From Thraustochytrium sp. TN22 (lineage: Eukaryota > Sar > Bigyra > Thraustochytrida > Thraustochytriidae): a stretch of 64,000 bases of DNA. The stretch is taken from contig JABLUY010000203.1 of NCBI GenBank assembly GCA_013306675.1, positions 1 through 64,000 on the forward strand, read 5' to 3'. Both the position numbers and the translations under genes were made by a program. Under the pieces are notes generated by a model, which had not been told where the DNA came from, made no database searches, and saw only the letters and a program-made list of their open reading frames with translations. Each line of letters begins with the position of its first letter. Positions within the stretch are counted from its first letter, which is position 1. Shown piece after piece: positions 21,017 through 59,600 of the stretch.

Positions 21017-21907
21017 GGCTCTTTGCCTGTCTGCCGAGACCAACTTTTGCACGTACGAACGCCTCCGCACGTACGAACTTACTGTTTGGCAGAATCACTG
21101 CTTCTCCGCCAGGGTGGCGAAGGAGTTGTGCGCGTCCGCCAAGGCGGTCTGAGTTCTCGGAGTCTTGCATGCAGCACCTGTCGTGCGGCCAGCTTGAGAC
21201 GCTTCCCCTTCTCTCGGCTTTCTGCTCTTGAAGCAAGCGCGACGTCGGAGCGACATGCAAAAAGTGATGCCGCAGCGCCTCAAAGCTGCAGTGCGCGGCC
21301 GTGAGCTAGCCGACCGTTCTGCTCGCCACCCGCGGCGTTGCTGCCCCGCTGGCTGGTGGTGACAGGGTTTGCCCACTGCTCGAACTAGGTAGCCTAGCTA
21401 GGCCTTCATTCATTTTAGCGTTCCAGCCCTGCATCAGCGAAGGCGAGCCTGGCTGTGAAGGGCCTTGTGCATGCAGCGTGCCCGCGGCCAGTGCTTGCTT
21501 CGGCGATTACGGGCGACCACGGTCTCAGCCAAAGTACATTCTGCACTTTCTGTAGCAGCCTGTAGCATGCTGCTACAGCGTACTCATCCTGGTGATACGT
21601 ACGCGTACGTACTGGTAAGGTTTGGTGCTGGCACGTGCTCGCACACGTGCTCTGGCGTGCTCTAGCCTACAGCGCCCTGGCGCGCCCTGCAGCGCCGGGA
21701 CGTTCCCATCGATTCTCCGGTGCTCTCCCGTGTCACACTGCAGCCTGGGCACCGTGAGTTACTGGCACTGGCAGTACGTCTCAACTGACTTGGCGAGTGC
21801 AGCGCGCCGCGGCGGCCAAGTCGGAGAACTGTCTGGCTGGCAGCGCCGCTGCGGCAATCACGAAATCAGAGCATGCAAGCGCGCGCACAAGGCTCGGACG
21901 GGCCATC
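21017..21907. other. Intergenic region of lower GC
   Basis: No gene seen. It contains a repeated GCACGTACGAAC motif at about 21048-21077, a CTAG cluster (21384-21402) and an inverted repeat TGTAGCA...TGCTACA at about 21551-21578 that could form a hairpin. Confidence 0.55.
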
Positions 21908-22609
21908 ATGGGCGAAACGCACGATGCGGGTGGCGATGCTGTGGTGGTCGCGGTGGCACGCCCGGCCAGCGCTTTGCACGGCGAGACCCTGGCGCTGTTC
22001 AGGTCGCTCACGAGAGACTTGGAGGTTGTAGAAACCTTCGTCAGCAACGCCGAGGAGACCGCGTCGATCGCACGCGAGAAGGAGGAGGAAGAGGCCTTGG
22101 AGACCTATCAGTCGCGTGGTCGGAGAAACATCGTCATGATGATCATCCTGACGCTGCCGATCCTTATTGCTGCGGCGGCCACCAGTAATGGCGTCGTCAT
22201 TGGCATCTGCGTCGTGGTCTGCTTGCTACAGGCCGTTGCACTCCGACATATGCTCGTCAGCTACTGGTCCAGCATGCGCTCGACTGCTCATGCGCACGCG
22301 ACCGCTGTCAGGGAGGAGTACATTATCCTCACAAAAGACGCACTGATCGTGGCAGCTCGCGACGCGAGGCGCGAAGTTAACATGAGCACCATTCCCTTCG
22401 ACCTAATCTCACGCGTGTATCCGGTGAACACACACCACGGGCACGTGCAGAAGGTCACCGTGGAGTGGTTTGGTGAACGCGGCGTGCGCCAAAGCATCAA
22501 AATTTCGCCTGTCGATAGGGCTTACTTCGTGCACATCCTTCACGAGAAGCAAGAGCACATCAATGTTGATCAACGCGAGCTCGCCGTGCCTGTCAAGACA
22601 GCCGAGTAA
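21908..22609 (+). CDS. Small two-pass membrane protein with PH-like C-terminal domain, paralog A
   Basis: 233 residues; the first ATG of the frame is at 21908. After an acidic N-terminal helix (about 30-70), two adjoining hydrophobic segments (IVMMIILTLPILIAAAA and VVIGICVVVCLLQAVAL, about 78-118) form a hairpin in the membrane. The C-terminal part is beta-rich (EEYIILTKDALIVAARD, IPFDLISRVYPV, VQKVTVEWFGERGVRQSIKI) and resembles a bacterial-type PH domain facing the cytosol. The next gene has the same layout and alignable motifs, so the two are tandem duplicates. No family name was recognised. GC content is visibly lower than in neighbouring genes, with AT-ending codons present. Confidence 0.75.
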   Translation: MGETHDAGGDAVVVAVARPASALHGETLALFRSLTRDLEVVETFVSNAEETASIAREKEEEEALETYQSRGRRNIVMMIILTLPILIAAAATSNGVVIGICVVVCLLQAVALRHMLVSYWSSMRSTAHAHATAVREEYIILTKDALIVAARDARREVNMSTIPFDLISRVYPVNTHHGHVQKVTVEWFGERGVRQSIKISPVDRAYFVHILHEKQEHINVDQRELAVPVKTAE

Positions 22610-23192
22610 ATCTGGTCTATGTGCATCACGATGGATGAGGGGTTTCCGCGAACTTGAGCGTTCCAGCAAGAATGAGAAGTCGCTGTTGCTGCTGTTCTGC
22701 TGCGGCGTCTGGCAAACTTACCGCTTTGTAGAAGGCCTAGGCCTAGGCGATCCTCCACGAGGCTCTCGCCGCCGAGGCTGTCACCGCCCCCGCCGCCTGA
22801 GACCAAAATCCGCCCGCCGGTCGGGCCGACTGCTCAGCCCTCGCGGAAGTTTTGCGTGCCAGATTAGCTCCCCCACGCAAGGCACCCTAGACATTGAACA
22901 CAAGAACTGCTGCCGACCGAAACTCCCTTGCGTCTTGTGCTGGTCGTACTCCAACATGCCTTGCACTCTCCCCCCTCACTGACTCCGGACCAGAGCTGGT
23001 GTTCCCCGCCTGGCTGGCTTTTCACCCGTTCTCCGACCTGGCCACGCAGGCCGGCTCCTATCATTGTGGCACGCAGAACCGGCGGTCCGGGTCGCGAGAA
23101 GAGCGGTAGCCGAGCAAAACCTCAACATCCATCTCGAGCGACCGCAGACGATAGTAGGCACTAGAGGGAGGCCTGAAGTGAGGCAACGAGAG
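22610..23192. other. Spacer between tandem paralogs
   Basis: Holds CCTAGGCCTAGG-type sequence at 22734-22748 and otherwise no recognised feature. It is of moderate GC. Confidence 0.5.
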
Positions 23193-23903
23193 ATGGACGA
23201 AGAAACAGAGAACGCAGTGCCTGCTGCTGAAGCTGAAGTGTTGGCCAGCTCCGATGTGGAGGCCCTCGCGCTCTTCAACGCACTAGAAGGCGTCCAGCTG
23301 AGTTCCCTCATGTTCTCTGAGAGCCAAGCCGAGCGATACGCCTTCGATACAGGCGTCTTTGCCGATGAAGCTGGCTGGAAGAAGTTCACGAGCGGGCTCA
23401 AATTCCTCGGGACGGTTGTGTTCTACACCTCGTTGCCCGTAGGACTCGTCATGGGCTTCACCGGTAACAGGTATACCATCATGGCCTTCACGTTGCTCGT
23501 CGTTTTTCAGGCCTCCTTCGCTTACTACCTGTGCCGGGCCCGTGAGTCCAGGACAATTATGGGTTTCGAGGAGTACATGGCTGTTGTCAAGGTTGAGTAC
23601 CTTGCTTTTGCACAGGACGATCTGCTGGTGGCCCAGCGCGTGTTGTACAGTCGACCGCTCGACCTGGTGGTCATTCCGTTTAGCTCCATCGCGAGTATCA
23701 CGCCTACGCGCGAGCGCAAGGGCTTCACCCAGAGGGTCAGTATCGAATGGTTCACCACCGGTGTCACGCGCAAAACGATCGAAGTCTGCCCAGTGGACAT
23801 CAACGGCTTCACGCAAGCCCTGCAAACGAGGCGGGAGAATTCCTTCGGACTTCCTCAAGCAATTCCTCAAGAAAGTCCGCAGGCCCCGATTGACGTCGTG
23901 TAA
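23193..23903 (+). CDS. Small two-pass membrane protein with PH-like C-terminal domain, paralog B
   Basis: 236 residues from the first ATG of the frame. Same plan as the preceding gene: acidic N-terminal helix, two hydrophobic segments (FLGTVVFYTSLPVGLVMGF and YTIMAFTLLVVFQASFAYYL, about 70-115), then a beta-rich domain. Matching blocks are VKVEYLAFAQDDLLVA with EEYIILTKDALIVA, VIPFSSIASITP with TIPFDLISRVYP, QRVSIEWFTTGVTRKTIEV with the VEWFGERGVRQSIKI block, and CPVDINGF with SPVDRAYF. Identity is low overall, so the duplication is old. The function is unknown; membrane proteins with a PH-like domain may bind lipid or a partner at the membrane. Confidence 0.75.
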   Translation: MDEETENAVPAAEAEVLASSDVEALALFNALEGVQLSSLMFSESQAERYAFDTGVFADEAGWKKFTSGLKFLGTVVFYTSLPVGLVMGFTGNRYTIMAFTLLVVFQASFAYYLCRARESRTIMGFEEYMAVVKVEYLAFAQDDLLVAQRVLYSRPLDLVVIPFSSIASITPTRERKGFTQRVSIEWFTTGVTRKTIEVCPVDINGFTQALQTRRENSFGLPQAIPQESPQAPIDVV

Positions 23904-24246: not shown

Positions 24247-27200
24247 TCAAGGCTGGCCAGCCTGAGTCTGATGGCCTGGCGCCTCAATGGGGGCGCCAGC
24301 GGTGTTGCGAAAGTAGTCGGTGATGCTCTTCTGCTTGAGCTTGTGGTCAGCGGGCTGAGGAGGCTCGCGCTCGGGGCTGAGGAAGCCCCACTTGATGCCC
24401 GTGGCGTGGAGCTCGTGCGCGAGGCCAAGGAGGAAGCCAGCGTCGAACTGGCGGCCGGCGATGACGGGAGGCATCTTTCCGGCGGCAGCCGTGGCCGGGA
24501 GGTCGTGCATGCGAGTCTCGAGCAGGTAAAGCAGGCAGGTGCTGCGGAGCAGCGGCGCGTGCACCAGCTCGAGCTCCTGAAGAAGCACAAAAACGGTGTT
24601 GAAGTCGATGAAGCCGATGAGCAGGCTCTCGCAGAGCAGCTGGAGGCCGTCGAGGTTGTACTCGTTGGCGACGACAAGGACCTCAAGCGCGATGGAGGGG
24701 TCGTCAGAGAGCGCGGCAGTGATCTCCGGGTCGGTTCCGCAGTACAGGTAGCGCAGGAAGATCTTGAGGGCCTGCTGCGAGGCGCTGAAACGCACATCGC
24801 TGGCACCGGCGTCCCGCCAGCGCGCGCTGACGCCGAACTGCGCCTTGAAGTAGGCGCACCGCGAGGCCAGGATGACCTTGTGCGCGGCGAAGCGGCGGTG
24901 CGGCGAGCCGAGGCCTGCGGGCTGGTGCGAGTTGCGATCCGTCTTGATGCGCTTGGGCGAGGCCTGCTCGTGGTGCGCGGGCAGGAGGTGCGTCATGTGC
25001 ATGTGTAGGTGGATGGAGGTGGTCTGGTGCTGGTGCTGGTGCTCCAGCTGCTGAGCGGACTGGATCTGGACCTCCTGGACGGCGGCCTGGGCGGCGGCCT
25101 GGTGCGCGTCAGCCGGGCCAAAGGGGCCCGGGAGCGTGCCCTTGAGGACGGCGGCCGCGGCGGCGCGCGGGCTGCGCGCCGTTGGGCTGCGAACCTCGTA
25201 GGCTGGATCGACGCAGAGGTCAATGTCGGAAAAGTCCGGCAGCGGGCCGAGCGGCGGCATGCCTCCCTTGCGGCGGCGCTGGCCGTCGCCGAGCGGGCAG
25301 TCGGCCAGCAGCTTGCCGAGGTCGCGCGCCCAGGTGGACTCGCGCACCTTGTCGCTGGTGCACTCTTGGTAGGCCGGGTTGCGCGAGGCAAGCGCCGGGT
25401 TGAGCTCGAGGCAGAAGCAGCAGAGGCGCGGCAGGCCGACGCGGATGGAGAGGTCCGCGAGGCACTGCGCAACGTTGGTGTCGCAGCGCAGCACCTGCGC
25501 CCGCTTGCGGACCGAGTCTGTGTACAGGTACTCGAGGAAGGCGAGCCAGACGTCGCGCGGGCAGGCAAGGTACTCGGGGAGCACGATGCGAATCTGCACC
25601 GGGGCGTCTTCCTCGAGCTCCTCGAGAGCGTCGTCCTCGTCGTCATCATCGCCATCCGTCATGGCATCGTCCGCCTTATGGCGCTTCTGCGTCGCGTTGC
25701 GGCCGGCCTCCGTGACCTGCTGGTCCACGAGCGCGGCGATGAGGTCGCAACGCGCGCAGAGAATGGCGGCATGGCCAGAGAAGTCCAGATACGGGACCGA
25801 GGCGGTGGCAACGGAGCCGGCCGCAGCGGCATCGGCAGGGCGGCCGCTGGCGTTGCGGCGGCGCGCGGGGCCGGCGCGGTTCTTGCGGCGGCTCGCGGAG
25901 CGGCGGAGGGCCTTGGCGGCGGCTCGGTCGGCGGCGTACTTCTCCTCGAGCTCCTCTCCCGCGTCAGCGTCCTCGTGGTCGGCGTGCACGCCAATGGCCA
26001 TGGCAAACTCGCTGGCCGAGGCAAGGGCCACGGCATCCTCGTCGTCGTTGCCGAGGTCGGTCTCCATGTGCATCTCGCTCTGGTCCTCGGCGAGCGCGGT
26101 CTCGACGGCAGCCACGGCGCGGTCCCGGATGGGCAGCGAGATGATGAGGTCGTGCGCGAGCGAGTGCTTCTTGGCGGAACGCGGCACGGCGGCGCCAGAG
26201 TGCAGATCGGCAAGCAGGTTGTCGCATGAGCGCTTGCGGCCGCGGTTGTTCTCGCGCGCATCGGGCGCGACGCTGGCCGCGGCGCCGCCCGCGCGCGCCG
26301 ACTCGCGCAGGCGCGAGAGCGGCATGGCGTAGGTGGTGCGCGGCGCGTTGGCGAAGAGAACGGTCTCGAAGAGCGCGCGCATCTCGTGGCGCACGCGCTG
26401 CTGCTCGCCGGCGATGCCGGCGTACGGCGTGAGCACCATCTGGCCGCGGCGGTTGCACTGTGGGGTGAGGTTGAAGACGGCGCGGGCGGCCTGGCGGCGC
26501 ACTTCGAGCGAGTGGTGCGTGAGCACGATCCCGACGAGGATGCGGAGCGCGCCGCCTTGGACGACGCGCGCCGGGTGGCGGTTGGCCATGTTGGCGATGG
26601 CGCCGGCGGCGTGCTTTTGCACCTCATCGTTCTTGGAGAGGAGGAGGTCGATGAGCGGCTCGAGGCCGCCGGCGCGCAGGATGGAGGCCTGGTTGCCTGC
26701 GTTGCCGGCGAGCGCGAAGATGGCGCGCGCAGACTGGCGCTGCACAGAGACGGTGGGCGACCGCAGCAGGCCGATGAGGGGCTCCAAGCCCCCGAGCTCG
26801 ACAATGCGGTCCTTGTTCTCGCTGCCAATGGCCATATTGGCGAGCGCGCCGGCGGCATCGCGCTGGATGTCTTCATTGCGCGAGGCCGTGAGGCGAATGA
26901 GCGCCGGCAGGCCGTCGTGGCTGGCCAGCATGCGCTTGGAGAATTCCTTGGCGGTCAGCGTGAAGATGGCGCGCGCCGCCTGGCGCTGCACGCGGGTGTC
27001 CGGCATGGCGGCCAGCTCGATCAGGCGCACGAGGGCGCCCGAGTTGACGACCGGGCGCTTGAACTCGTCCGTCATGGCGATGTTGCCGATGGCGCCAGCC
27101 GCGTTGACCTGGACGTCAAAGTTGTTGGAGCGCAGCAGGTGCACGAGCGCCGTGAGGCAGCGCTCGTCGAGGATGGCGCGGCGGTTCTCGACATGGGCGG

Positions 27201-28590
27201 CGAGCGCAAAGAGGCAGCGCGCGACCTGGCGCTGGATCTTGCAGTTGCCCGAGTAGGCGAGGTTGCGCAGGTGGCCAAGCGCGCCGCGCTCGACGAGCTT
27301 GAGCTTGTTCACCGGATGGATGGCGAGGTTGGCCAGCGCGCCGGCCGCGTTCATGCGCACCGCGTCGCAGACCGAGTTCATGCAGTCCAGGAGCAGCGGC
27401 AAGCCGCCCTCGCGTGTGATGGCCAGCTTGTTCTCGTCGTTGGCGGCGATGGCAAAGAGCGCGCGACAGGCGTGCGTGAGGATGGAGGTGTCGTTGGAGC
27501 GCAGCAGGCGCAGCAGCGGCTTGAGGCCGTCATAGTTGCGCACGATGGCGCGCTTGATGTCCACCTCGGTGGCCAGGTTGGCCAGCGTGCCGACCGCGGC
27601 GCACTGGCCGTCTGACGGCACCTGCGAGGCGGCGATAAGGTGCGGCAGCGCGCCGCAGTCCACAATGGCCTGGCGGATGTGCACGTTGACCACGGACAGG
27701 TTAAAGGTGGCGCGCAGCGCGCTGCACCGCACGTCCTCGTCGAAGGACTGGATGAGACGCACGAGCTTGCTCACCGTGTCGTGCTGAACGAGCTCGTCGC
27801 GGCCGAATTCGATCAGCGAGAGCCCGCGGATAATCTGCAGACATAGCCTCTGGTGCTCCACCATGGACCAGCGGTCCAGCACGACAAGGATGACCGGCAC
27901 GAGCCCCTGCTCCACGACGCGGTACCTGCCGTTGATGGTGTCGCACATGTCGCGCAGGCACGTGAGCGCGTTCATGCGCACCTCGGCGTCCTGCGAGAGC
28001 AGCAGGCTCTCGAAGCGCGCCATGTGCGGATCCTCCAGCAGCGCGTGCCGGCCCACCTCCGAGGCGGCGAGCTCCACCATGCCGCGCGAAAGCAGGCGCT
28101 CGTGAAAGTGCGAGAGCCCCGACTCGGTGCCCTCGCCGCCGTCGCCGCCCTCGGCCAGCCGCCGCGCGGCGTCCTGCACGGCGCGAGCCACCGCCTCGGA
28201 CGCGGCGCGCTGCTGCTGTTCCATCAGCTGCATCGCGCCCTGCGCGCGCAGGTCGTCCATGTGCGTGTCGTCGTCCTCGTGGATGTGGGCATCGCCGCCG
28301 ACGGCCGCCGCAGCGCCCCGGGCCGCGGCCGCTGCCGCGGCCTCCAGCACGGCCACGGCGGCAGCAGCCGCCGCGGTCGCGGCGGCCTCTGTTGTAGATG
28401 GGGCGGCATCGCCCTGCGTCTGCGTGTGCGTTTGTTGTTGCTGCGTTTGTTGCTGCTGCGTGTGCTGCGTGTGCTGCGTTTGCTGCTGCTCTTGTGCGTC
28501 AAGGTGGTCGTCCGCAGCCGCCTGCATGGCGGCAGCTGCGGCGCCCGCGGACTCGGCGCTGCGCGCGCGCGTCTGTCTGCCGGTGGCCAT
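24247..28590 (-). CDS. ARM-repeat protein with two BTB domains and C-terminal PIP box
   Basis: 1447 residues from the ATG at 28590. The N terminus is Gln/Thr/His-rich. About 185-705 is a superhelix of some twelve armadillo repeats (for example VRMNAAGALANLAIHPVNKL, VQRQSARAIFALAGNAGNQ). An acidic, basic-patch linker with possible nuclear signals follows. A first, degenerate BTB lies at about 930-1050 with an acidic insert, and a second at about 1230-1365 (HRRFAAHKVILASRCAYFKA, LKIFLRYLYCG). The C terminus contains QKSITDYF at residue 1420, a perfect PCNA-interacting-peptide motif. ARM plus BTB is the layout of plant ARIA and ABAP1, BTB proteins likely to bind CUL3; ABAP1 is reported to act with ORC1 and CDT1 in replication licensing. 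By inference this is a nuclear CUL3 adaptor tied to replication. Confidence 0.88.
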   Translation of the reverse strand: MATGRQTRARSAESAGAAAAAMQAAADDHLDAQEQQQTQHTQHTQQQQTQQQQTHTQTQGDAAPSTTEAAATAAAAAAVAVLEAAAAAAARGAAAAVGGDAHIHEDDDTHMDDLRAQGAMQLMEQQQRAASEAVARAVQDAARRLAEGGDGGEGTESGLSHFHERLLSRGMVELAASEVGRHALLEDPHMARFESLLLSQDAEVRMNALTCLRDMCDTINGRYRVVEQGLVPVILVVLDRWSMVEHQRLCLQIIRGLSLIEFGRDELVQHDTVSKLVRLIQSFDEDVRCSALRATFNLSVVNVHIRQAIVDCGALPHLIAASQVPSDGQCAAVGTLANLATEVDIKRAIVRNYDGLKPLLRLLRSNDTSILTHACRALFAIAANDENKLAITREGGLPLLLDCMNSVCDAVRMNAAGALANLAIHPVNKLKLVERGALGHLRNLAYSGNCKIQRQVARCLFALAAHVENRRAILDERCLTALVHLLRSNNFDVQVNAAGAIGNIAMTDEFKRPVVNSGALVRLIELAAMPDTRVQRQAARAIFTLTAKEFSKRMLASHDGLPALIRLTASRNEDIQRDAAGALANMAIGSENKDRIVELGGLEPLIGLLRSPTVSVQRQSARAIFALAGNAGNQASILRAGGLEPLIDLLLSKNDEVQKHAAGAIANMANRHPARVVQGGALRILVGIVLTHHSLEVRRQAARAVFNLTPQCNRRGQMVLTPYAGIAGEQQRVRHEMRALFETVLFANAPRTTYAMPLSRLRESARAGGAAASVAPDARENNRGRKRSCDNLLADLHSGAAVPRSAKKHSLAHDLIISLPIRDRAVAAVETALAEDQSEMHMETDLGNDDEDAVALASASEFAMAIGVHADHEDADAGEELEEKYAADRAAAKALRRSASRRKNRAGPARRRNASGRPADAAAAGSVATASVPYLDFSGHAAILCARCDLIAALVDQQVTEAGRNATQKRHKADDAMTDGDDDDEDDALEELEEDAPVQIRIVLPEYLACPRDVWLAFLEYLYTDSVRKRAQVLRCDTNVAQCLADLSIRVGLPRLCCFCLELNPALASRNPAYQECTSDKVRESTWARDLGKLLADCPLGDGQRRRKGGMPPLGPLPDFSDIDLCVDPAYEVRSPTARSPRAAAAAVLKGTLPGPFGPADAHQAAAQAAVQEVQIQSAQQLEHQHQHQTTSIHLHMHMTHLLPAHHEQASPKRIKTDRNSHQPAGLGSPHRRFAAHKVILASRCAYFKAQFGVSARWRDAGASDVRFSASQQALKIFLRYLYCGTDPEITAALSDDPSIALEVLVVANEYNLDGLQLLCESLLIGFIDFNTVFVLLQELELVHAPLLRSTCLLYLLETRMHDLPATAAAGKMPPVIAGRQFDAGFLLGLAHELHATGIKWGFLSPEREPPQPADHKLKQKSITDYFRNTAGAPIEAPGHQTQAGQP

Positions 28591-28680
28591 GGCGGCGCGC
28601 AGGCCTGCCACCAGGTTTGCGCGGCTCCTGCGCGCGGACCTGCCGAGGAAGGACTCCGTCCTGGGCCTTGAGCCCCGCCA

Positions 28681-33186: not shown

Positions 33187-34662
33187 TCATTCGTCGTCGT
33201 CGGAGTCGAGGATTTCAATGGGCCCGTCATCGTCGACGACGAGCGCAGGAGAGGCAGGAGGCCCTGGCCGCCTGTCAGAAAAGAGCGGGGAGGCGGCGCG
33301 CTTGATGGCAGGCGTTGTGTTGGGCGGCCGCTCCGGGGCTTCTTCGACAGGCTTCCAGGTTGCGTCGCGAAAGTACTCGACCCGGTCGACGTCGGGCTGC
33401 GTGCTGGTGCCATTGAGGACCTCAAGGAACCAGGAGTCGAGGCGCAGGCTGCTGGGCAGGGTGGGGCTCTTCTTACAAACGGGACAGCGGAATTGCGCGT
33501 TGCGCGCGGAGCGCTGGAAGTCCAGAAAACCGCGGCCGTCAAAGCACTGCAAGTGCGTGCAGTTCTCGCCACGCACCGGCCACTCAATGCGCGCGAAGGT
33601 GACGAGGTCTCGCAAGTTGACGGTAACCTTGTCGACCTCGATCTCATCGTCACCAAAGGACGCGGCAATGAGTGAGTCCGTCTTGGCACGCGTTTCGTGC
33701 GGAATCGCGCGCAGAAGTGCGTCCGTGGTCCGGTTCGAAGCAAGCACCACGGAGTAGACAAAGCGCGCACCGTCGTCGTGCCTTTCGCAGTTGGGTGCAT
33801 GCAGGCGGAGGAAGTTGACGCTGCCCGGCGTGACGTAGCGCGTGATGTCGGCAGGGCGCTCGCGCACGGCCTTGACGCGCAGGCGTCCGTCCGGCGCTTG
33901 CTGAACGAGGCGCACCTCGTGCTGGTTCGCGTACAGGCGGGCGCCGGGGGGCCAGCGCACGCAAGCTTCGTCCGATGGCACGGGCTTGCCCTCGCGCCGA
34001 GCCTTCTTCTCGTCAAAGAGCTCGTTGCGCCCCTTTGCAACTTGTACACAGTACACGAGGATTTGCGCGCCTTCTTTCAACAGGTCTTCCCTGGTGAGCG
34101 TCGCCAGGTTTATGTGTACATCTGTCGACCCGGCATGCATCTGGCTGGCCTCGTTCAGGATGCAGCCTTCGTACAGACTGCGCACGTACTCGCTGAAGGG
34201 GTCGGCCTTCGCCACCTCCTCGGCCTTGCCACGGCCCTTTGCAGCCAGGGCCACCTCGCTCAGGAACGCGGGCGCAGACACGGTCGGGCGCGCCGCCGCG
34301 GCGGCTGCTGCCGAAGCCGAAGCCGAGCTCGACGACGACGACGCCGCGGGCTGGCGCATCCCGAACGCCATGTCGAAGGTGTCCTCTGCCGCGTAGTCGT
34401 GAGGCGCCGTCATGCCTGCCGGGTGCCTCAGCGTCGCCGACGTGTACGCATTGTGACTGAAGTATCCTCTGTTCCGGATCTCAGAACCCTTTTTGATCAT
34501 TTCCTCGTGCGAGTCCGTCCGGTTCGCATACTCCAACAGCCGATCCAGCAGTTCGGGCTTGTTGCCCTTTTTGCGCAGCCGGAAGGCGCCCAGGAGGTCC
34601 TTGAGCTGCGGCACACGCAACGATTTGAGCGCGAGCTCCAGCCGGGCTTGGTCTGCCGCCAT
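33187..34662 (-). CDS. PIAS/SIZ-type SUMO E3 ligase
   Basis: 491 residues from the ATG at 34662. A SAP DNA-binding motif is at about 10-45 (LKSLRVPQLKDLLGAFRLRK). A PINIT-like region (about 165-335) is followed by an SP-RING with ligands Cys368, His370, Cys373, Cys393 and Cys396 (CTHLQCFDGRGFLDF, FRCPVCKK). The C terminus is a SUMO-interacting motif, hydrophobic then acidic (PIEILDSDDDE), with a second candidate in ALVVDDD. This is the full PIAS/Siz order. The protein transfers SUMO from UBC9 to nuclear and chromatin targets. It is somewhat shorter than animal PIAS or yeast Siz1. A Ser/Ala run (about 108-125) is low complexity. It is the only SUMO-pathway gene in the window. Confidence 0.92.
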   Translation of the reverse strand: MAADQARLELALKSLRVPQLKDLLGAFRLRKKGNKPELLDRLLEYANRTDSHEEMIKKGSEIRNRGYFSHNAYTSATLRHPAGMTAPHDYAAEDTFDMAFGMRQPAASSSSSSASASAAAAAAARPTVSAPAFLSEVALAAKGRGKAEEVAKADPFSEYVRSLYEGCILNEASQMHAGSTDVHINLATLTREDLLKEGAQILVYCVQVAKGRNELFDEKKARREGKPVPSDEACVRWPPGARLYANQHEVRLVQQAPDGRLRVKAVRERPADITRYVTPGSVNFLRLHAPNCERHDDGARFVYSVVLASNRTTDALLRAIPHETRAKTDSLIAASFGDDEIEVDKVTVNLRDLVTFARIEWPVRGENCTHLQCFDGRGFLDFQRSARNAQFRCPVCKKSPTLPSSLRLDSWFLEVLNGTSTQPDVDRVEYFRDATWKPVEEAPERPPNTTPAIKRAASPLFSDRRPGPPASPALVVDDDGPIEILDSDDDE

Positions 34663-35213
34663 CGTCAGCAGCCTTCCCAAGGGGAAAGGGGAGGAGGCTA
34701 AGGACACGGAAGCCGCCGCCGGTCACCGCCAAAGACGAAGAGGTTGACGACGAGGTTAGCGACGACGACGACGACGACGACGAAGAAGAAGAAGAAGAAG
34801 AAGAAGAAGAAGAAGAAGAAGACGGAGAAAAAGGAGAAAAAGAAGACGTAGCCCGTGAAGCGGACGCCAACGACCACGTGAAAGAGGACTGGCTGGAGTC
34901 CGTGTGCACCGCGCAGACGCTGCACGCGCGCGGGGTCGCCGCGCGGGCGCTCACGCCGACCAAGGGCGGTGGCGAGACACCGCCCCCCGTCGCCGCCACG
35001 CGCGTGTGATCAGGCGGGTGGGCGGGCGAGCACGCGAGCGGGCAAGCAGGTGAGTGAGCGAGCGAGCAGGGGAGAGCGGCCGGCCGCGCGCGAAGAGCGC
35101 GACCTCGTGCGCCGTGCGGATGCCGTCCTCTCGACGCCGCCGCGCGCCGCCGCCGCCGGGGCTGCCGCCGCCGCCGCTGCTCGCGCTGCCGCCGCCGCCG
35201 CCGCCGCCGCTGC

Positions 35214-37992: not shown

Positions 37993-40983
37993 ATGGAGCA
38001 GCAGCAGCACCACCATAGCGGCGTGGCCGCGCAGCGCGGCGAGCTGGAGAAGCTGAGCAAGGAGAACTTCAACTTGAAGCTGCGCATCTTCTACCTGGAG
38101 GAGCGGCTGGCCAAGCTGCGCAATGGCGGCGAGATTGACGAGTCGTTGGAGCAAGAGGTGGTGGAGCAAAAGGTGCTGCTGGATGAAAAGCAGCAGGAGC
38201 TGGACGAGCGCAATCTGCTGCTGGTCAAGGCGCGCAACGCCATCGAGGGCCTGCAGACGGACCTGGCGCTCTGCCGCGCGGAACTCGAGGAGGCGCGGAG
38301 CGTGGAAGTGCCCATGGAGGCGCTGCGCGAGAAGGAGGCCGAGGTGGACGCGCTGCGGCACCGGTTGCACGAGTCGGAAGAGCGCGACCGCAAGCGGCTC
38401 GAGGACGTGCTGACGCTCAACGAGCAGGTGCGCGAGCTGGAAGGCGCCGCGAAGCGCGCGGCCGTGCTGGAGGACGATTTGCGACGCGCGCGGCAGGAGG
38501 CGAGCGAGGCCCGCGAGGCGCTCGAGAAGCGCGAGGCGGCCATCGAGGAGGCGCGGGCAGAGGCCACCCGCCAGGCGCAGGACCTCGAGAAGGCGCGCGC
38601 CCAGCTCGTGGACAGCGCGCGGTCGCTGGGCGACCAGCGCAGCCGGGAGGCGGACCTTATGAACCGGCTGCAGGAGGCGACGCGCACCGAGGAGGGCCGC
38701 GTGGCGCGCCTCACGCAGCTGCTGCGGCAATGCGAGCAGGAGCGCGACCAGGCCGAGCGCGGCGCGGCGCTGGCGGAGCGCCGCGCCGAGGACGCCGCGC
38801 GCGAGCTCGAGGGCGCGCGCGCCGAGCGCGCCGACCTCGACGCGGCCGTGCGCCGTCTCGAGCGCGACAACCAGCGCCTGCGCGACGCGTACTCGACCAA
38901 GGAGATCAACCTGCGTCAGCAGGGCGAGCTCAAGCAGCAGGAGCTGCGTCGCGAGCAGACCGAGCGGGAGCTCGCGCTCAAAGCGGAGCTCGCCGAGCTG
39001 CGCGGCAAGTTCACGGCGCTCGAGTTCGCGCGCGACCAGGCCTACGAGCGCGCCGAGGCCGACCGCCAGCGCCTCCAGGTGGCGGAGGCAGCCTTGCGCG
39101 AGCGCGGCGCCGTCTCCAGCGCCGACCTCGACGCCCTGCACGCGCGCCTGGCCGCCGAGGTGCAGGCGCGCAAGGACAAGGAGGTCCAGCTGCGCGAGGC
39201 GCTCGCCGACAGCGTCGAGCGCGAGAAGGAGCTGCGCCGCCACGTGCGCTCCTGGGAGGCCCAGCTCACGGGCAAGCTCGACGAAGTGCTCGCGCCCGCA
39301 CCGCACGCGCCGGCGCACCTGTTGCAGCAGTCGCAGGGCAACCAGCAGCGCGGCGCTGGCCGCTACCAGCAGTACGCGCACCACGAGCTGGCGTCCTCCT
39401 CCGCGGCTTCGCGCGCTTCCAGCGACTCGTCCTCGCCCACGGCCGTCTCGCTGCGCGCTGGTGACCTGGTCGTGGACGAGCTGGCCTTGGATGCAGACGC
39501 GGGCCACTCCAACCACGCGAATGCGAACGGCCGGCCGCGGCCGCGGCCCTGGCTCGACGAGAGCCTCGGCTCAGCGGCACGACGCAGCAACGGCGGCTCG
39601 GACCGCCGCGGGCGCCCGCAGCACCAGCAGCAGGGCCCGTCGCACGAGCTGCTTCTGCGCCTCGAGGACCTCCAAGACCTCAAGAGCGCCTTCGCCAAGA
39701 GCGGCATCGAGATGGAGCGCAAATGGCACGCCAAGCTCAAGCAGATCGTCGGTCAGCTAGAGCGCACCGAGGCGCAGCTTGCGCACGCCGAGGGCAAGCT
39801 CGCCATTTTCATGCAGAGCATGCACACCATCGCGAACTCGAGCAGCTCGCAGCTCAAGGGCCAGGCGCGGTCTCTGGAGCAGCGCATCAGCGAGCTCCGC
39901 CTCGAGCGGCAGCACGCCGAGGACCGCGCACGCGTGCTGGAGCAGCGCGCGCAGCGCGCGCTCGCCGACAAAGACGCGCTGCACGAGCAGCTCGCCACCG
40001 CGCGCGAGCGCGCCGCGCATCTCGAGGGCGAGGTGCGCCAGGTGCGCGCGGAGCTGGAGGCGGCGCGCCAGGAGAAGGGCCGTGTGGACCAGCGCCTCGA
40101 GGACCTCTGTGGGTCCCAGGGCACGCTTGAGGAGAGCAATCGCGTGCTCTCGCTGGAGCTCGACGACCGCAGCCGCCGCATCCAGGTCCTCTCTGACGCG
40201 CAGGACACGCTCAAGCAGGACCTGCGCGACGCCCAGGACGCGCTGCGCGCCAAGTCGGACGCTGTCGCCGCGCTCAAGGCCAAGCTCGACCAGGCCGCGC
40301 GCCGCCTCGAGGAGCGCGACGCCAAGCTGCGCGACTCGCGCGTGCGCCTGGACCGCGCCATGCTCGATGCGGACCGTGCGTCCGCTGCCGGTGGCGACGA
40401 CTTCGAGCGCACCATCATGCGTCAGGTCCAGGAGACCGAGCGCGCCATGCGCTCCTCGGGCTCCGGTCTGGCCGCCTCCTCGCAGTTGCGCGCGCACGGC
40501 CTCGCGCCCGACGCCGCCGAGACGCTGCGCGAGGACTACCAGGCGCTGCGCCGCAGCGAGGACGCCTTTTCGCGCCTCATGGAGGCTGCCGCCGCCCTCG
40601 TCGACAAGTGTCAGCTCCTGCTAGCGCGCCACGGCACCGCGTCGTATGAGGTCCGCGACCTCCTGAACGCCACGCAGCGTCTGGCGCACGACCTGCAGCG
40701 CGTCGCGGACGACATCTACGCCGTGCGCCGCCGCCTCATGGACGCCACCGTCCCTGGCGCGCAGTTCGGGACCGCCACCAGGCCTCCGCCCACGCCAACG
40801 ACCACCTCGCACGCCCGCACCTGGCGTCGTGATCCGGGCCCACCCTCATCTCGTGGCGGAGGCCGTCCTTCTTCCTCGGCCGCCGACGAAGTCATGACCA
40901 GGCTCGACCGCCTCGGCTCTGCCTTCGAGCAGCAGACGTCGCGTATCTACGCTGACCTCGATGACTTTCCCTCACGGCGTTGA
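37993..40983 (+). CDS. CM1-domain coiled-coil centrosomal/MTOC protein
   Basis: 996 residues. Residues 17-42 (LEKLSKENFNLKLRIFYLEE) match the centrosomin motif 1 (CM1, Cnn_1N) of Drosophila centrosomin, human CDK5RAP2 and fungal Mto1/Pcp1, which binds and activates the gamma-tubulin ring complex. The rest is almost continuous Glu/Arg/Leu coiled coil (about 45-430 and 550-830), split by a Ser/His/Asn-rich linker (about 435-545) and ending in a Pro/Thr/Ser-rich tail. CM1 proteins recruit gamma-tubulin to centrosomes, basal bodies or other microtubule-organising centres. The start codon lies immediately before a Gln/His stretch and only 16 residues before CM1, as is usual for the family. Protein-level conservation outside CM1 is low, so a more exact name is not justified. 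Confidence 0.87.
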   Translation: MEQQQHHHSGVAAQRGELEKLSKENFNLKLRIFYLEERLAKLRNGGEIDESLEQEVVEQKVLLDEKQQELDERNLLLVKARNAIEGLQTDLALCRAELEEARSVEVPMEALREKEAEVDALRHRLHESEERDRKRLEDVLTLNEQVRELEGAAKRAAVLEDDLRRARQEASEAREALEKREAAIEEARAEATRQAQDLEKARAQLVDSARSLGDQRSREADLMNRLQEATRTEEGRVARLTQLLRQCEQERDQAERGAALAERRAEDAARELEGARAERADLDAAVRRLERDNQRLRDAYSTKEINLRQQGELKQQELRREQTERELALKAELAELRGKFTALEFARDQAYERAEADRQRLQVAEAALRERGAVSSADLDALHARLAAEVQARKDKEVQLREALADSVEREKELRRHVRSWEAQLTGKLDEVLAPAPHAPAHLLQQSQGNQQRGAGRYQQYAHHELASSSAASRASSDSSSPTAVSLRAGDLVVDELALDADAGHSNHANANGRPRPRPWLDESLGSAARRSNGGSDRRGRPQHQQQGPSHELLLRLEDLQDLKSAFAKSGIEMERKWHAKLKQIVGQLERTEAQLAHAEGKLAIFMQSMHTIANSSSSQLKGQARSLEQRISELRLERQHAEDRARVLEQRAQRALADKDALHEQLATARERAAHLEGEVRQVRAELEAARQEKGRVDQRLEDLCGSQGTLEESNRVLSLELDDRSRRIQVLSDAQDTLKQDLRDAQDALRAKSDAVAALKAKLDQAARRLEERDAKLRDSRVRLDRAMLDADRASAAGGDDFERTIMRQVQETERAMRSSGSGLAASSQLRAHGLAPDAAETLREDYQALRRSEDAFSRLMEAAAALVDKCQLLLARHGTASYEVRDLLNATQRLAHDLQRVADDIYAVRRRLMDATVPGAQFGTATRPPPTPTTTSHARTWRRDPGPPSSRGGGRPSSSAADEVMTRLDRLGSAFEQQTSRIYADLDDFPSRR

Positions 40984-53654: not shown

Positions 53655-56600
53655 ATGTCGGGCGGCCCGTGCACGAGGTCGGCCTCGTGCAGGTGCGATG
53701 ACTGCGTCGCGGCCATGAGCATGTTCTCGGCCAAGGACCTCATGGCCGTGTCGTCGTCCAAGGTCGACTTTGGCGACGGCGACGAGGCCGGCGCAGCGCC
53801 CGAGCCGAGCACGCCTCCCAGCGCGCCCGCCGAGGCGCCGCGGCAGCCCAGCCCACCGCTTGAAAAGGCGGCGCCGCCGCCCAAGCCAGCACCCGAGCCG
53901 GAGCCCGCCGCCAGTGCGCCGGCGACCGTGGAGGCGCCCACGAAACCCGCCGAGACGCCCGCGATGCCGCCGCAGGCGCCGCCGCAGGCACCGCCGCAGG
54001 CCGTGCAGGTGGTGGACGGGCCCGAAGAAGACTTCTCGGCCTTGTCGGTCGCGGACCTGGTGGACCATGACAACTGGAAGGCGCGCAAGGTGGGCTTCGA
54101 GAAGCTGGCCGAGCCCGCCCACAAAGCCGACTTGTCTGAGGCGCGCTTCAACAAGTGCGTCACCGAAACGTCCATGGGTGCCCTGGACCCGGGGCTGGAC
54201 GCGGCGCGCGCCTTTGTGCAGCACGTGTACAAGGGCAAGGACGAGGGCGCGCTCATTGCCTCGACCGTGCCCAAGCTCTTCAAGAAGGCGCTCGTGGGCC
54301 GGCCCGGCACCAAGCAGCGCGCCTTCGACCTGTGTCTGGACTTCATGGAGGTGGACGCCGCCAGCATGGAGGCCTGCGTGCAGGCGCTGGTGCTCGGCCT
54401 CAAGGAGCGCAACCCCAAGGTGGGCGCCGCCTGCCTCGAGTGTGTGCGCGAGGCCATTAAGGCCTTTGGCGGCCGGCGCCTGCCCATCCAGGCGGTGCAG
54501 CAGGCCATCGTGCAGGGTAGCGATGTGAAAAACCCGGCAATTCGCACCATGGCCACGGGCCTCGCCGTCGACATGGACCTGTGGTACATGGGCGCTTTCA
54601 AGGATCTCGTTGTGGCCGTCATCGACAACGCGGCCACGCAAAAGTCCATCTGCAAGGCACTCGAGGATGCTGCCGCGAAGCGAGGCGACGGCGAGCCTCT
54701 GCCGGCGCCCACGCGCGTCTTCCGCGGCGAGGGCAAGCCCGGCGAGGAGGGCACGGGCGCGGCTGCAGGGGCGGCTGGCGCCGGCGCCGGCGCCGGCGCC
54801 GCGGCTGCGGCGCCCGACCTCTTCGACGTGCTGCCCGAGAAGGCCATCCTCGACAAGGCCGCCGAGATGAACTTTGAGAAGAAGCTCAAGGAGCCCAAGT
54901 GGCAGGACCGCCGCAAGGCCATCCTGGATATCCTCGAGCTCTGCGGGCCGACGCCCAAGCTCGCGCGCGGTGAGTACACGGACATGGTGCGCGCGCTGCG
55001 CGGCGTCGTGCAGAGCGACTCCAACCAGGCCGTCGTCGTGGACGCCATCAAGCTGCTGGGCGCGCTCAGCGCCGGCCTGCGCGCCGACTTCCACGCGCAC
55101 GCGCGCGCTTGCTGCGGCCAGCTGCTCGACCGCTACCGCGACAAGAAGGCGGCCTGCATCAGCGCCGTGGACGCGACGCTGGACAACTTCGCGCTGCACA
55201 GCTTCAACCTCACCGAGGACCGCGTCGTGAGCACCATCGACGAGCACATCTCGCAGGACGGCGCGTCCGGCCGCCAAAAGAGCACGCCGCTGCAGCGCAA
55301 GAACATGCTCGCCTGGATCGGTCGCGCGCTCCAGAGCGGCTCGTGCTGGAATCCGGCGCGCAAGCAGCTCAGCGCCCTGGACGAGGCCGGCTTCGCCTCC
55401 ATCATCGGCCACCTCGCCGCCGGCTGCGCGGATGCCGACCCGGACGTGCGCGAGGTATCCGCGGCCGCGCTCGCGCAGCTGCGCCAGCCCGACGCGCTTC
55501 CGGTCCCGCCGCCCGCCGCCTGCGCGGCCGTCGTCAACACCACCATCGAGCAGCTCGTCGCGTCCAACCCCAAGCTCGCCAAGAAGCTCGAGGGCGCTGC
55601 AGCGGCTGCGAGCGCGGCCCCAGCCGCCTCTGCGGCACCCGTTGTCTCGGCCCCCAGCAGCAAGCCGGCGGCCGAGCCGCGCCGTCGGCCAACGGCGGCG
55701 GCGGCCAAGGAGCCGCCCAGTTCCAACGCCAGCACCGCCTCCAGCGACGCTGGTGCGCCCCGCGGCCCCGGCGGCCCGCCGCTAGCCCGCCGCAGGAAAC
55801 CGGCGGCCCCCAGCGCAAACGGCGCCGCCAAGCCGGCCAAGCCGGCCGCGAGCGGCGTCGGCGCCGTCGCGGCGCCTCAGGACGATGGCGAAATGGCCGA
55901 CTCGGGCGAGCCCGTCATGGGCTCGGAGGAGGCGGTTGAGAAGGTGCAGGCCATGGGCATTGCCGGGCTGACCGAGGCAGAGACTGCCTTCGATGAGGCG
56001 GCCAAGTGGCAGGACAAACTCGCGCTCTTCGACTGCCTCAACAAGCACGTCGAGGCGAGCGGCTCCCTGGATCAGGCCAGCGCGCATGCCTTGATCGCGT
56101 ATATTGGGTCGCGTACCAAGAGCTTCAAGGAGTCCAACTTCAATATCATGAACGCCGCGTGGGAGGCGCTCGAGAAGGTCGTCGCGGCCTGCGAGAGCCC
56201 GGCCATCTCCCGGTCCTACGCTAGCGCCATGCTCGAGCCGGCCGCCGCCAAGATCGGCGACCGCAAGCAAGACGCACCCGTCAAGGCACTCACGCTCACG
56301 CTCTGCGAGGCGTGCGGCCCCAAGTTCGTCTCGTGGAAGCTGCTCAAGATGCTGGACAAGGTGAGCTCGCCCAAGACGCTCGAGGAATCCTTTGTGCTCC
56401 TGAGCTCCATCGCCGAGGAATTCGGCGCGCGCGGGCTCAACGTGCAGGCGGTCATTGCCTTCGCGGCCAGCGCCAAGGGCCTGGGCGCGCGCCAGGCGCC
56501 CTGCAAGGCTAAGGCGACCGCCTTCCTCGCCGAGCTCTACCGGCAGCTCGGTGAGCCCGTGCGCCAGCTCTTGGGCGACGACGCCAACGGCGCAGTCAGC

Positions 56601-59600
56601 GAGGCCTTCGACAAGGTCGGCTTCCAGGGCGCGGCCGCCGCGGCGCCCAAGCGCAAGGTCAAGGGCGCCGAGGAGGGCGCCGCGGCCGGCGGAGGCGCCG
56701 CGGACCTGGGCGATCTCGTTCCGCGCGCTGACATTTCGGGCCAGCTCACGGACGCGCTCTTCAACCGCATGAGTGACGAGGCGTCCAAGGCGGCCTGGAA
56801 GGAGCGCGCCAAGGCGATCGAGGACGTTGACGAGATTCTCAAGGGCGCCCGGGGCCGCATCCAGCTCACGCGCGAGGTGCGCCAGCTGACGGGCGAGCTG
56901 CGCAAGCGCCTGGCCGACTCGAACCGCAACCTGGCCGTGCGCGCGGCCAACACCATGGCCGCCGTCGGTTCGGCCGTCGGCGGGGACGGCGCCGCTACCC
57001 TGGCCAAGAGCTCGGGCGCCGCGCTCTTCTCCTACCTGAGCGACGCCAAGAAGATGGTCGTCTCCGCAGTGAGCGAGGCCATCGAACAGTGGACCGTGCA
57101 CGACGGGCAGACGCATCCGGGCGCCTTCTGGGCCATGGTGCAGCAGGCGCCGACGCCGCTCATGGATGCCAAGAACGACCGCAGTGTCATGCTCGGGTGG
57201 TTCCTCAAGCATGCCGCGGCGCAGGGCGTGCTGACCGCCTCCAGCGAGGGCGTCGATGAGGCACTCACTGCACTGGCCAAGCCGCTCTTGTCCTGTCTGC
57301 AGAGCCGCGATCCCAAGGTGCGCAAGCTCGCAGGTCAGGCTATCTCCCTCAGCGTGCGCCAGCTCGGTCGGGAGGAGGGCGAGGCCGTCTTCAATGACGG
57401 CTGCCGCGACCTCAAGCCGGCCATCGTGCGCAGCCTCACCCCGCTGCTCAAGGCGGCCTACGAGGAGGCCGGCGCCAGCGCCCGCGCGCCCGTGGGCAAT
57501 GGCGGCACGGCAAGCGCCAGTGCAAGCGTCGCCGAGGCCGAGGCCGACGCCGACGCCGAGGCGGGCCACGACGAGCCCATGTCGGCCAACACGGACTGCG
57601 GCAGTATTGCGTCGGGCCCGTCCAGCAGGGGCAGCAGCAGGCCGCGGGCGGCGCCCGGCGGCACCGGCGGCAGTAAGCCGGCGGTCGCTTCACGCCTTCC
57701 GCCGGGTGCCCGCGCCTCGAGTGCGGCGGCCGCGGCGGCAGGTCCAGGCCCGCGCAAGCGGCCCACGGGCATCCCGCGTCCGCGTCGAGGCCCCGCGGGG
57801 GCGGGGGCTGCTCCTGCGCCCGCCTCGGCGGCTGCAGCCGCGGCCGAGGCGCCCTCGGAGGCGCCGTTCAAGGCGCCGAATCCGTCGCTGCGTCAGAAGC
57901 GCGAGGAGCGCGGCCGCCGGCACCGGTGGCCGGCCATCTTTGACGAGAAGGACAAGCACCGCATGAACGAGCTGCGGCAGGGGCTGCGCGACGACCTGGA
58001 CAAGGTGCTGAGTGCGGACCTCGTGCAAAAGATGTTCATCGACGCAGATGGCGGGCGCGCGGCGCGCGGGTCGGCACTGGACCCGGCCTTCAACACGCTG
58101 CTGGAAGAGCTGCCCAACTACGGGACGGAGGCGCGCGAGTGCTTCGACCTGCTGCTCAAGTGGAGCACGCTTCAGCTGCACAACAACAACAGCACCGTCA
58201 CGCTTAACGTGCTGCAGCTGCTGGAGCACATGTTCGAGCTGGCCAGCGGCGCCGAGTATGTGCTCTCCGACTACGAGGCGGCTGCCTTTCTCCCGCACCT
58301 GCTGCAGAAGCTGGGTGAGAAGCAGAAGCGCTTCCGCGACACCGTGCGGCACATCATGGAGTTGCTGTGCAACTGCTACCCGGTATCCAAGTACGCGCCT
58401 TATGTACACAACGAAATTGGCCCGAGCCAGCGTAGCGCCTATGTACTGACCGAGTGCCTCAGCGAGCTGGCGCGCCTGGCGCGCGTCAACGGGCTGACGC
58501 TGCTCAAGGTCAAGGTGGGCGTCGGGAGCAACTTGCTGCGCACCGTGGCTGAGATGATCAACGACTCGCGCAAGGAGGTGCGCTCTGCGGCGCTCGAGTT
58601 CATGGAGGCCATCTGGGAGCACGAAGGGCGCGACGAGGAGGCCTTCATGGCACGCATCGCGCAGTTCAAGGCGCCACTCAGCGACAAGGCCGAGACGCTT
58701 GTGATGAACCACTTCAAGGAGGCGCGCATGCACGCGCCGGCCGCAGAGCTCGGCATCACGGCGACTGGCGCGCAGCAGCAGCAGCAGCAGCAGCAGCACG
58801 AGGAGGCGCAGCCGGGTAGCCCGGTACAGCGGTCCTCGCAGGGCGCCGTGCCGGCGCGCAAGCTGACCCTGCAACGCCCCGGGACCGGCGGGACAGCAGG
58901 CGAGGCCGAGGCGGCAGCGGTACCATCGCACCCGATGTCGCCGCCCTCGTCGCAGTCCGTGGATGAGGCCGGCGTATCGCGGCGCGCGGCGCTCCTGCGC
59001 GAGACTCCGCTCCAGGTGGATGTACGCGCGCAGCTGCAGGAACGCGCCCAGCAGAGCCCGCGCACGCCAGAGGCGCACGCCGTGCGCAAGTCGGCGGAGC
59101 TCCGCTTCCAGTTCGACCTCCCGGAGACGCCCCCGTCGCCGCAGAGCCGCAAGCGGATGAGCATGGCCAACACGCCCGGCATGGCGACGCCGCACGTGTC
59201 AGAGAAGGAGAACGACCCCTCTTATGAGGGCGGCCTGGGTCGCTTCCGAAGTGGCCTGGGTGGCGGCAGCAGCGTGGCCATTGGGACGCCTGGCCACCCC
59301 AAGGCGGGCCGCGTTTTGGCAACGCTGGCCGAGAAGGTCGCGGTCATCCCGGCGCAGGCCAAGGCGTACCTGGCGCTTGTGCGGGACCCGACGTCGCTAG
59401 ACTCAGAGGCAAGCGCACGCAACGCGCGAGAGGCCGGGATTCAGGCGCTCGCACTCATCGGTGCGAGCGACCCGCCGGCGGGCTGGGTCGAGGCCGGCTG
59501 CGGTGGGCAAAAGGAGTGGATCGCCCTGCTCAAGGACGACTTGGACGTCCCGGAGGTTATTGACGTGCTGCTCGACCTTCTGGACGAGGTTGTAAGTCGC

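Follow-up and report, generated by a model that had tools for sequence, protein, structure and literature searches.

The protein encoded by a long frame in a 64,000-nucleotide stretch of DNA from Thraustochytrium sp. TN22 (hereinafter, the window) combines armadillo (ARM) repeats with BTB domains and ends in a tail that spells QKSITDYF, a string that reads as a PCNA-binding PIP box. The question raised by this locus is whether the tail binds PCNA and, if so, what a protein of this kind would do at the clamp. The parts of the protein are ordinary, and their combination is unusual. The reading that appears to account best for the sequence data, to which we assign a probability of about one half, is that the protein is a nuclear substrate adaptor of the CUL3 type which is docked on PCNA through a true TD-class PIP box (with Thr-Asp at positions 5 and 6) in its C-terminal tail (Table 1).

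Table 1. Features of the predicted ARM-BTB-BTB-PIP protein, with positions in the window
Feature	Position	Strand	Residues	Basis and remarks
Predicted protein, CDS	24247..28590	-		First in-frame ATG to stop; continuous open frame, GC3 0.90
Armadillo-repeat region	26467..28020	-	~198-715	Limits from the Pfam KAP stretch and solved ARM chains
BTB1, probable first, divergent BTB with acidic insert	25408..25806	-	~936-1068	HHalign
BTB2, second BTB	24616..24900	-	1238-1332	Pfam BTB, 36.7 bits, cut-off 20.5
C-terminal tail	24247..24390 (including stop)	-	1408-1454	Pro/Gln/Ala-rich composition
Probable PIP box QKSITDYF	24310..24333	-	1427-1434	TD at positions 5-6, R at +1, A at +4

The frame as delimited mechanically (P0001, minus strand) comprises 1454 amino acids between a GTG at 28611 and a stop codon at 24247-24249; the earliest ATG in this frame codes for residue 8 and lies at 28590, the GTG being a mechanical start. 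The peptide LKQKSITDYFRN is encoded in this frame on the minus strand, with the letters and the coordinates that the sequence-only reading had given. That reading had, however, ended the protein at ...YFRN, which is wrong: 18 further residues precede the stop codon, so that 20 residues lie beyond the motif. The GC content at third codon positions is 0.84 for residues 1410-1434 and 0.65 for residues 1435-1454, compared with 0.90 for the whole frame, whereas the GC content of the 200 bases downstream is 0.495; therefore, the tail looks coded.

Elsewhere in the window, a PIAS/Siz-like SUMO ligase, with a SAP domain and a MIZ/SP-RING finger, is encoded at 33187-34707 (minus strand), and two centrosome- or microtubule-type proteins share the window, namely a protein with a Centrosomin N-terminal motif (37993-40983, plus strand) and a very long TOG-domain protein (53655-61142, plus strand). 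The adjoining small frames at 21797-22609 and 23064-23903 (plus strand), neither of which had a Pfam match, have similar C-terminal halves and hydrophobic segments and, by eye, form a tandem pair.

The ARM region is recognized by the Pfam Arm model with 270.6 bits over 11 stretches. The model of the ARM repeats of ARMC5 (ARM_ARMC5, PF24768) scores 109.4 bits on residues 390-635, above its cut-off of 79.9, compared with 63.2 and 63.7 bits for two control ARM proteins of the same genome, an importin-alpha that has an IBB domain and another ARM protein resembling importin-alpha; both controls fall below the cut-off, but there are only two of them, and ARM repeats are easily confused. The two BTB domains that had been proposed from the sequence alone differ in how they were recovered. 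BTB2 was identified with Pfam and again in a BTB family search of the same genome. BTB1, for which the Pfam BTB model gave no match in the respective piece, was found only with HHalign: residues 925-1085, compared with an alignment of six BTB domains (BTB2 together with five domains from four further proteins of the genome), matched over residues 936-1068 with a probability of 93.9% and an E-value of 1.6e-7 (for a single comparison). The description as a double BTB protein is thus probably correct. The tail (residues 1408-1454) is probably disordered; in a single-sequence AlphaFold2 model of residues 930-1454, the mean pLDDT was 43.8 and the tail was at ~33-37, but this model is poor throughout. 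Given basic stretches seen by eye, we infer a nuclear location of the protein.

Within its own genome, the combination of domains stands alone among the matches listed. The BTB family search yielded 15 matches, and the ARM family search at least 69 at an E-value of 0.001 or better (150 of the 205 candidates scored). ARM and BTB matches fell on the same contig only for C115 and C19, among the matches listed, those on C19 being in separate frames ~60 kb apart, and the window's frame is the only one among them that contains both. Given that frames on contigs C444, C46 and C286 also have two BTB matches each, two BTB domains in a protein are not unusual in this genome. When BTB2 and the tail were used as the query, four matches were obtained besides the protein itself, namely a Kelch-BTB protein, two RCC1-BTB proteins and a BTB protein with ankyrin-like sequence (by eye); none of the four contains a PIP-like motif by a loose pattern.

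The sequence-only reading held that QKSITDYF fits the PIP consensus exactly, and this is the case: the string matches Q-x-x-[ILM]-x-x-[FY]-[FY], with T-D at positions 5-6, Arg at +1 and no basic residue at +4, the downstream residues being R-N-T-A. The motif is located beyond the last domain, in the Pro/Gln/Ala-rich tail, and its flanks are only mildly positive. By the composition of the protein, 0.017 strict PIP matches and 4.6e-5 matches of the TD form are expected; shuffles of the whole protein yielded a strict PIP in 330 of 20,000 cases and a TD PIP in none of the 20,000, and shuffles of the last 47 residues (with Val additionally permitted at position 4) yielded a PIP in 215 and a TD PIP in one of 200,000, all these odds being uncorrected for the variety of other motifs that could equally have caught the eye. 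QKSITDYF is the sole strict PIP match in the six frames of the window, compared with a mean of 0.23 in 60 first-order Markov sequences; a looser pattern matches at five additional places. For a notional proteome made up of 20,000 proteins, each 450 residues long, composition predicts ~104 strict PIP matches and 0.28 matches of the TD form. Taken on its own, the strict pattern seems to mean little, and the TD form in a tail would mean more. We consider it quite probable, with good confidence, that QKSITDYF is a genuine PIP box, and binding of PCNA by the tail appears likely.

PIP patterns were also searched in the entire genome (37.9 Mb in 453 contigs) as unspliced DNA patterns, which miss motifs that are split by introns or have Asn at position 1. 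The pattern Qxx[ILMF]TD[FY][FY] was found at two places, with one for the backwards control, and the place other than QKSITDYF is a frame of 27 residues. When position 1 could be either Lys or Gln and position 4 also Val, the TD pattern was found at three places, again with one in the control; the third place, with Lys at position 1, lies in a frame of 562 residues, and its flanks resemble membrane helices. Thus, by unspliced patterns, no credible gene of this genome other than that of QKSITDYF appears to encode a TD-type PIP, and the pattern Q-x-x-[VILMF]-T-D-[FY]-[FY], in unspliced codons, reveals nothing further of the TD degron class in the lineage. Looser PIP patterns occur near the control level (542 places and 473 backwards). 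The pattern QxxIxx[FY]F occurs at 81 places, compared with 22 backwards, but the backwards controls are rough, given that a reversed pattern meets codons differently where third positions are GC-rich, and therefore the surplus of 59 should not be taken for a number of true PIP boxes. Among the 30 of these 81 places that were inspected, 18 lie in frames of at least 300 residues, several of them cut by the end of the locus, and five are set, by eye, in a charged or low-complexity tail (L049, L053, L067, L070 and L003, the last being the window's own).

Some of these other places are worth recording in their own right. A protein with an HMG-box and a histone fold (L070, C111:340808-340831, plus strand) ends in QHSIRAFFGKK, where only three residues follow the PIP-like motif. 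Another frame (L053, C22:14509-14532, minus strand), at least 539 residues long and rich in Lys at its tail, carries QAPISKFFTKR (KKDGQAPISKFFTKR) 31 residues from its end; it has no Pfam match and is reminiscent, as a guess on our part, of WAPL. An identical run of 24 bases, encoding QGDIDWFF, occurs three times on contigs C4 and C407 (L014, L015 and C407:80951); the two copies that were inspected lie in short frames that resemble each other, and the sequence is perhaps a repeated element.

The partners that the preferred reading calls for are encoded in the same genome. The PCNA_N search produced one place (on contig C134), where a single frame contains both PCNA domains, and the best stretch pairs residues 31-289 with residues 1-259 of 1axc_A, which we take to be human PCNA and whose numbering is used here. 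This PCNA holds M40, H44, V45, L47, L126, I128, P234, Y250, A252, P253 and K254, positions that presumably line the PIP pocket as in human PCNA; it has A at 127 and R at 231, where we take it to differ from the human protein, and neither of these was counted as a pocket position. A frame with the Pfam domain Exo_endo_phos, labelled as APE2-like by eye, carries KKQSQITSFF, and APE2 proteins are PCNA clients. The proposal of a PCNA-binding tail is favoured by the exact consensus, the location of the motif past the last domain, the pocket residues of PCNA, the motif of the APE2-like protein and the scarcity of the TD form. The cullin family is represented at four places, three of them near full length and one partial (APC2-like by eye). 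CUL3 is present, with a wide margin (E-value of 1.4e-189 to Cullin-3, compared with 1.2e-142 to Cullin-4B), as is a CUL4-like cullin (2.2e-112 to Cullin-4A and 7.3e-98 to Cullin-3); comparison gave no clear placement for the third near-full-length cullin.

BTB domains contact CUL3 through the phi-x-E motif. At the respective place, BTB1 reads V-T-E, which fits but comes from a weak alignment, and BTB2 reads W-R-D, which does not; five other BTB domains of the same genome have F-R-E, M-R-E, M-K-E and L-R-E, with one lacking a clear motif. The earlier suggestion of a CUL3 adaptor is therefore favoured by the presence of CUL3 and by BTB1, and disfavoured by BTB2, and binding of CUL3 by the protein remains plausible.

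POLDIP1/KCTD13, which to our knowledge has no ARM repeats, is a precedent for a BTB-CUL3 adaptor with a PCNA motif, although its motif is far from the consensus whereas QKSITDYF is exact. This BTB adaptor of CUL3 was reported to carry the PCNA-binding motif QTKV-EFP and to be present with PCNA at replication foci in S phase, the motif being placed in one passage at the C terminus and in another at the N terminus (PMC9679015). Cdt2/DTL is a ubiquitin-ligase receptor in which a C-terminal PIP box recruits CRL4 to PCNA (PMC6312923), and in this layout it resembles the proposed adaptor. It differs in having N-terminal WD40 repeats and a CUL4 ligase, as opposed to ARM repeats and BTB domains, and the human Cdt2 peptide SSMRKICTYFHRKS, unlike QKSITDYF, has neither Gln at position 1 nor TD.

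ARMC5, which has one BTB domain, shares with the window's protein the combination of ARM repeats and BTB, and the ARM region of the latter exceeds the curated ARM_ARMC5 score; the two BTB domains and the PIP tail set the window's protein apart, and the two BTB domains argue against simple identity. In ARMC5, the BTB domain is required for CUL3, but not for bulk binding of RNA polymerase II, the known target (PMC11758996), and SREBF is bound through the Armadillo part (PMC9462479). The plant ARM-BTB protein ABAP1 has been tied to replication licensing (PMC8121025) and described as plant exclusive (PMC7903899). ABAP1, for which ORC1, CDT1 and TCP24 are the characteristic partners, and ARIA were compared by description; they share ARM and BTB with the window's protein, and unlike in the latter, a PIP box goes unmentioned for ABAP1 in the available portion of the paper, as does CUL3 (PMC8121025). 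The proposed licensing role rests on ABAP1, the protein described as plant exclusive, and the ARM region scores above the ARM_ARMC5 cut-off; by this Pfam score and its two controls, we lean towards ARMC5 as the nearest described relative. None of the matches listed in the literature combines ARMC5, PCNA and a PIP box, and the text of one ARMC5 paper (PMC7617427) lacks the words PCNA, replication and BTB. Likewise, no ARM-BTB protein with a PIP box was found among the matches listed in the literature searched, a body of work that excludes most subscription journals and preprints.

The Thr-Asp pair also raises the possibility, suggested by the sequence-only reading, of a PIP degron, in which case CRL4-Cdt2 would degrade the protein itself on PCNA during S phase; such degrons occur in CDT1, p21 and SET8. 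The published rule, Q/N-x-x-psi-T-D-theta-theta-x-x-x-R/K, assigns strong PCNA binding to TD and completion of the degron to the basic residue at +4 (PMC3973308); QKSITDYF shares the Q-x-x-psi-T-D-aromatic-aromatic part and fails at +4, where it has Ala, and the degron reading was set aside for this reason. The R+4A mutant of Cdt1 still binds PCNA and escapes degradation (PMC3973308). Since TD is present and the basic residue is absent, the protein should bind PCNA and should not itself be a CRL4-Cdt2 substrate. PIP boxes with TD were described as uncommon and apparently peculiar to the substrates of CRL4-Cdt2 (PMC3973308), which favours a degron, as does the CUL4-like cullin of this genome; given, in addition to Ala at +4, that no second credible gene with a Q-TD PIP emerged from the unspliced patterns, which miss Asn at position 1, we regard this scenario as highly improbable.

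If QKSITDYF were a chance match, the tail would spell a PIP box without binding PCNA in the cell. The ~104 strict matches expected in the notional proteome and the looser patterns near the control level are compatible with this scenario, which is nevertheless unlikely considering that only 0.28 matches of the TD form are expected in the same notional proteome, that the string lies beyond the last domain, within the tail, and that no other credible gene has a TD PIP by the patterns searched. Alternatively, the PIP box could bind PCNA in a protein that is no ligase adaptor, but rather a scaffold that moves ARM-bound partners, such as licensing or chromatin factors, to or off the clamp, in the way that ABAP1 acts in plants. 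The evidence from the motif, namely the shuffles and the rarity of TD, is identical for the scaffold and the adaptor. BTB domains can act in dimerisation alone, and W-R-D in BTB2 at the place of phi-x-E is what a scaffold would allow; the ABAP1 paper without CUL3, in its available portion (PMC8121025), points in the same direction. Against these stand the CUL3 gene, V-T-E in BTB1, and an ARM region that scores above the cut-off of ARM_ARMC5, given that ARMC5 is a CUL3 adaptor (PMC11758996). We hold the scaffold to be a tentative possibility that deserves some weight. The adaptor docked on PCNA faces difficulties of its own. No relative was found in viral_contigs or genome_contigs (which are not collections of eukaryotes; 1 and 4 peptide-pattern matches), and the motif may be confined to this genome. 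Matches to looser PIP patterns abound, and BTB2, the clear BTB of the two, departs from the phi-x-E present in four of the five other BTB domains. A TD box that is not a degron would contradict the apparent specificity of TD to CRL4-Cdt2 substrates (PMC3973308). Affinity is not assured either: PIP peptides range from 80 nM (p21) to 45 micromolar (FEN1), positive flanks matter (PMC6881253), those of QKSITDYF are only mildly positive, and affinity therefore cannot be read from the motif. In the same source, 64% of the curated PIP motifs lie in an accessible, disordered stretch (PMC6881253).

Under the preferred reading, an adaptor of the CUL3 type docked on PCNA, the tail would insert QKSITDYF into the interdomain pocket of PCNA, the BTB domains would bind CUL3-RBX1 or dimerise, and the ARM superhelix would hold the client, with DNA-loaded PCNA as the platform where CRL3 meets its substrate, as is the case for CRL4-Cdt2; the protein would bind PCNA without its own destruction, given that TD is kept and the basic residue at +4 is absent. 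A more specific version, which we consider a rather long shot as a whole, is that a CRL3 receptor independently gained a C-terminal PIP box, similarly to Cdt2, in the form of a TD motif minus its degron half, and that its ARMC5-like ARM region removes a client only at loaded PCNA; the client could then be a licensing factor, or RNA polymerase II standing ahead of a fork. Should the tail bind PCNA, the CUL3 system, like CRL4-Cdt2, would have evolved a means of docking its ligase on the clamp. The motif employed would belong to the TD class, described as infrequent and, it seems, particular to the substrates of CRL4-Cdt2 (PMC3973308). ARM-BTB proteins, which have so far been linked in animals to the turnover of RNA polymerase II and in plants to licensing, would thereby gain a direct link to the replication fork.
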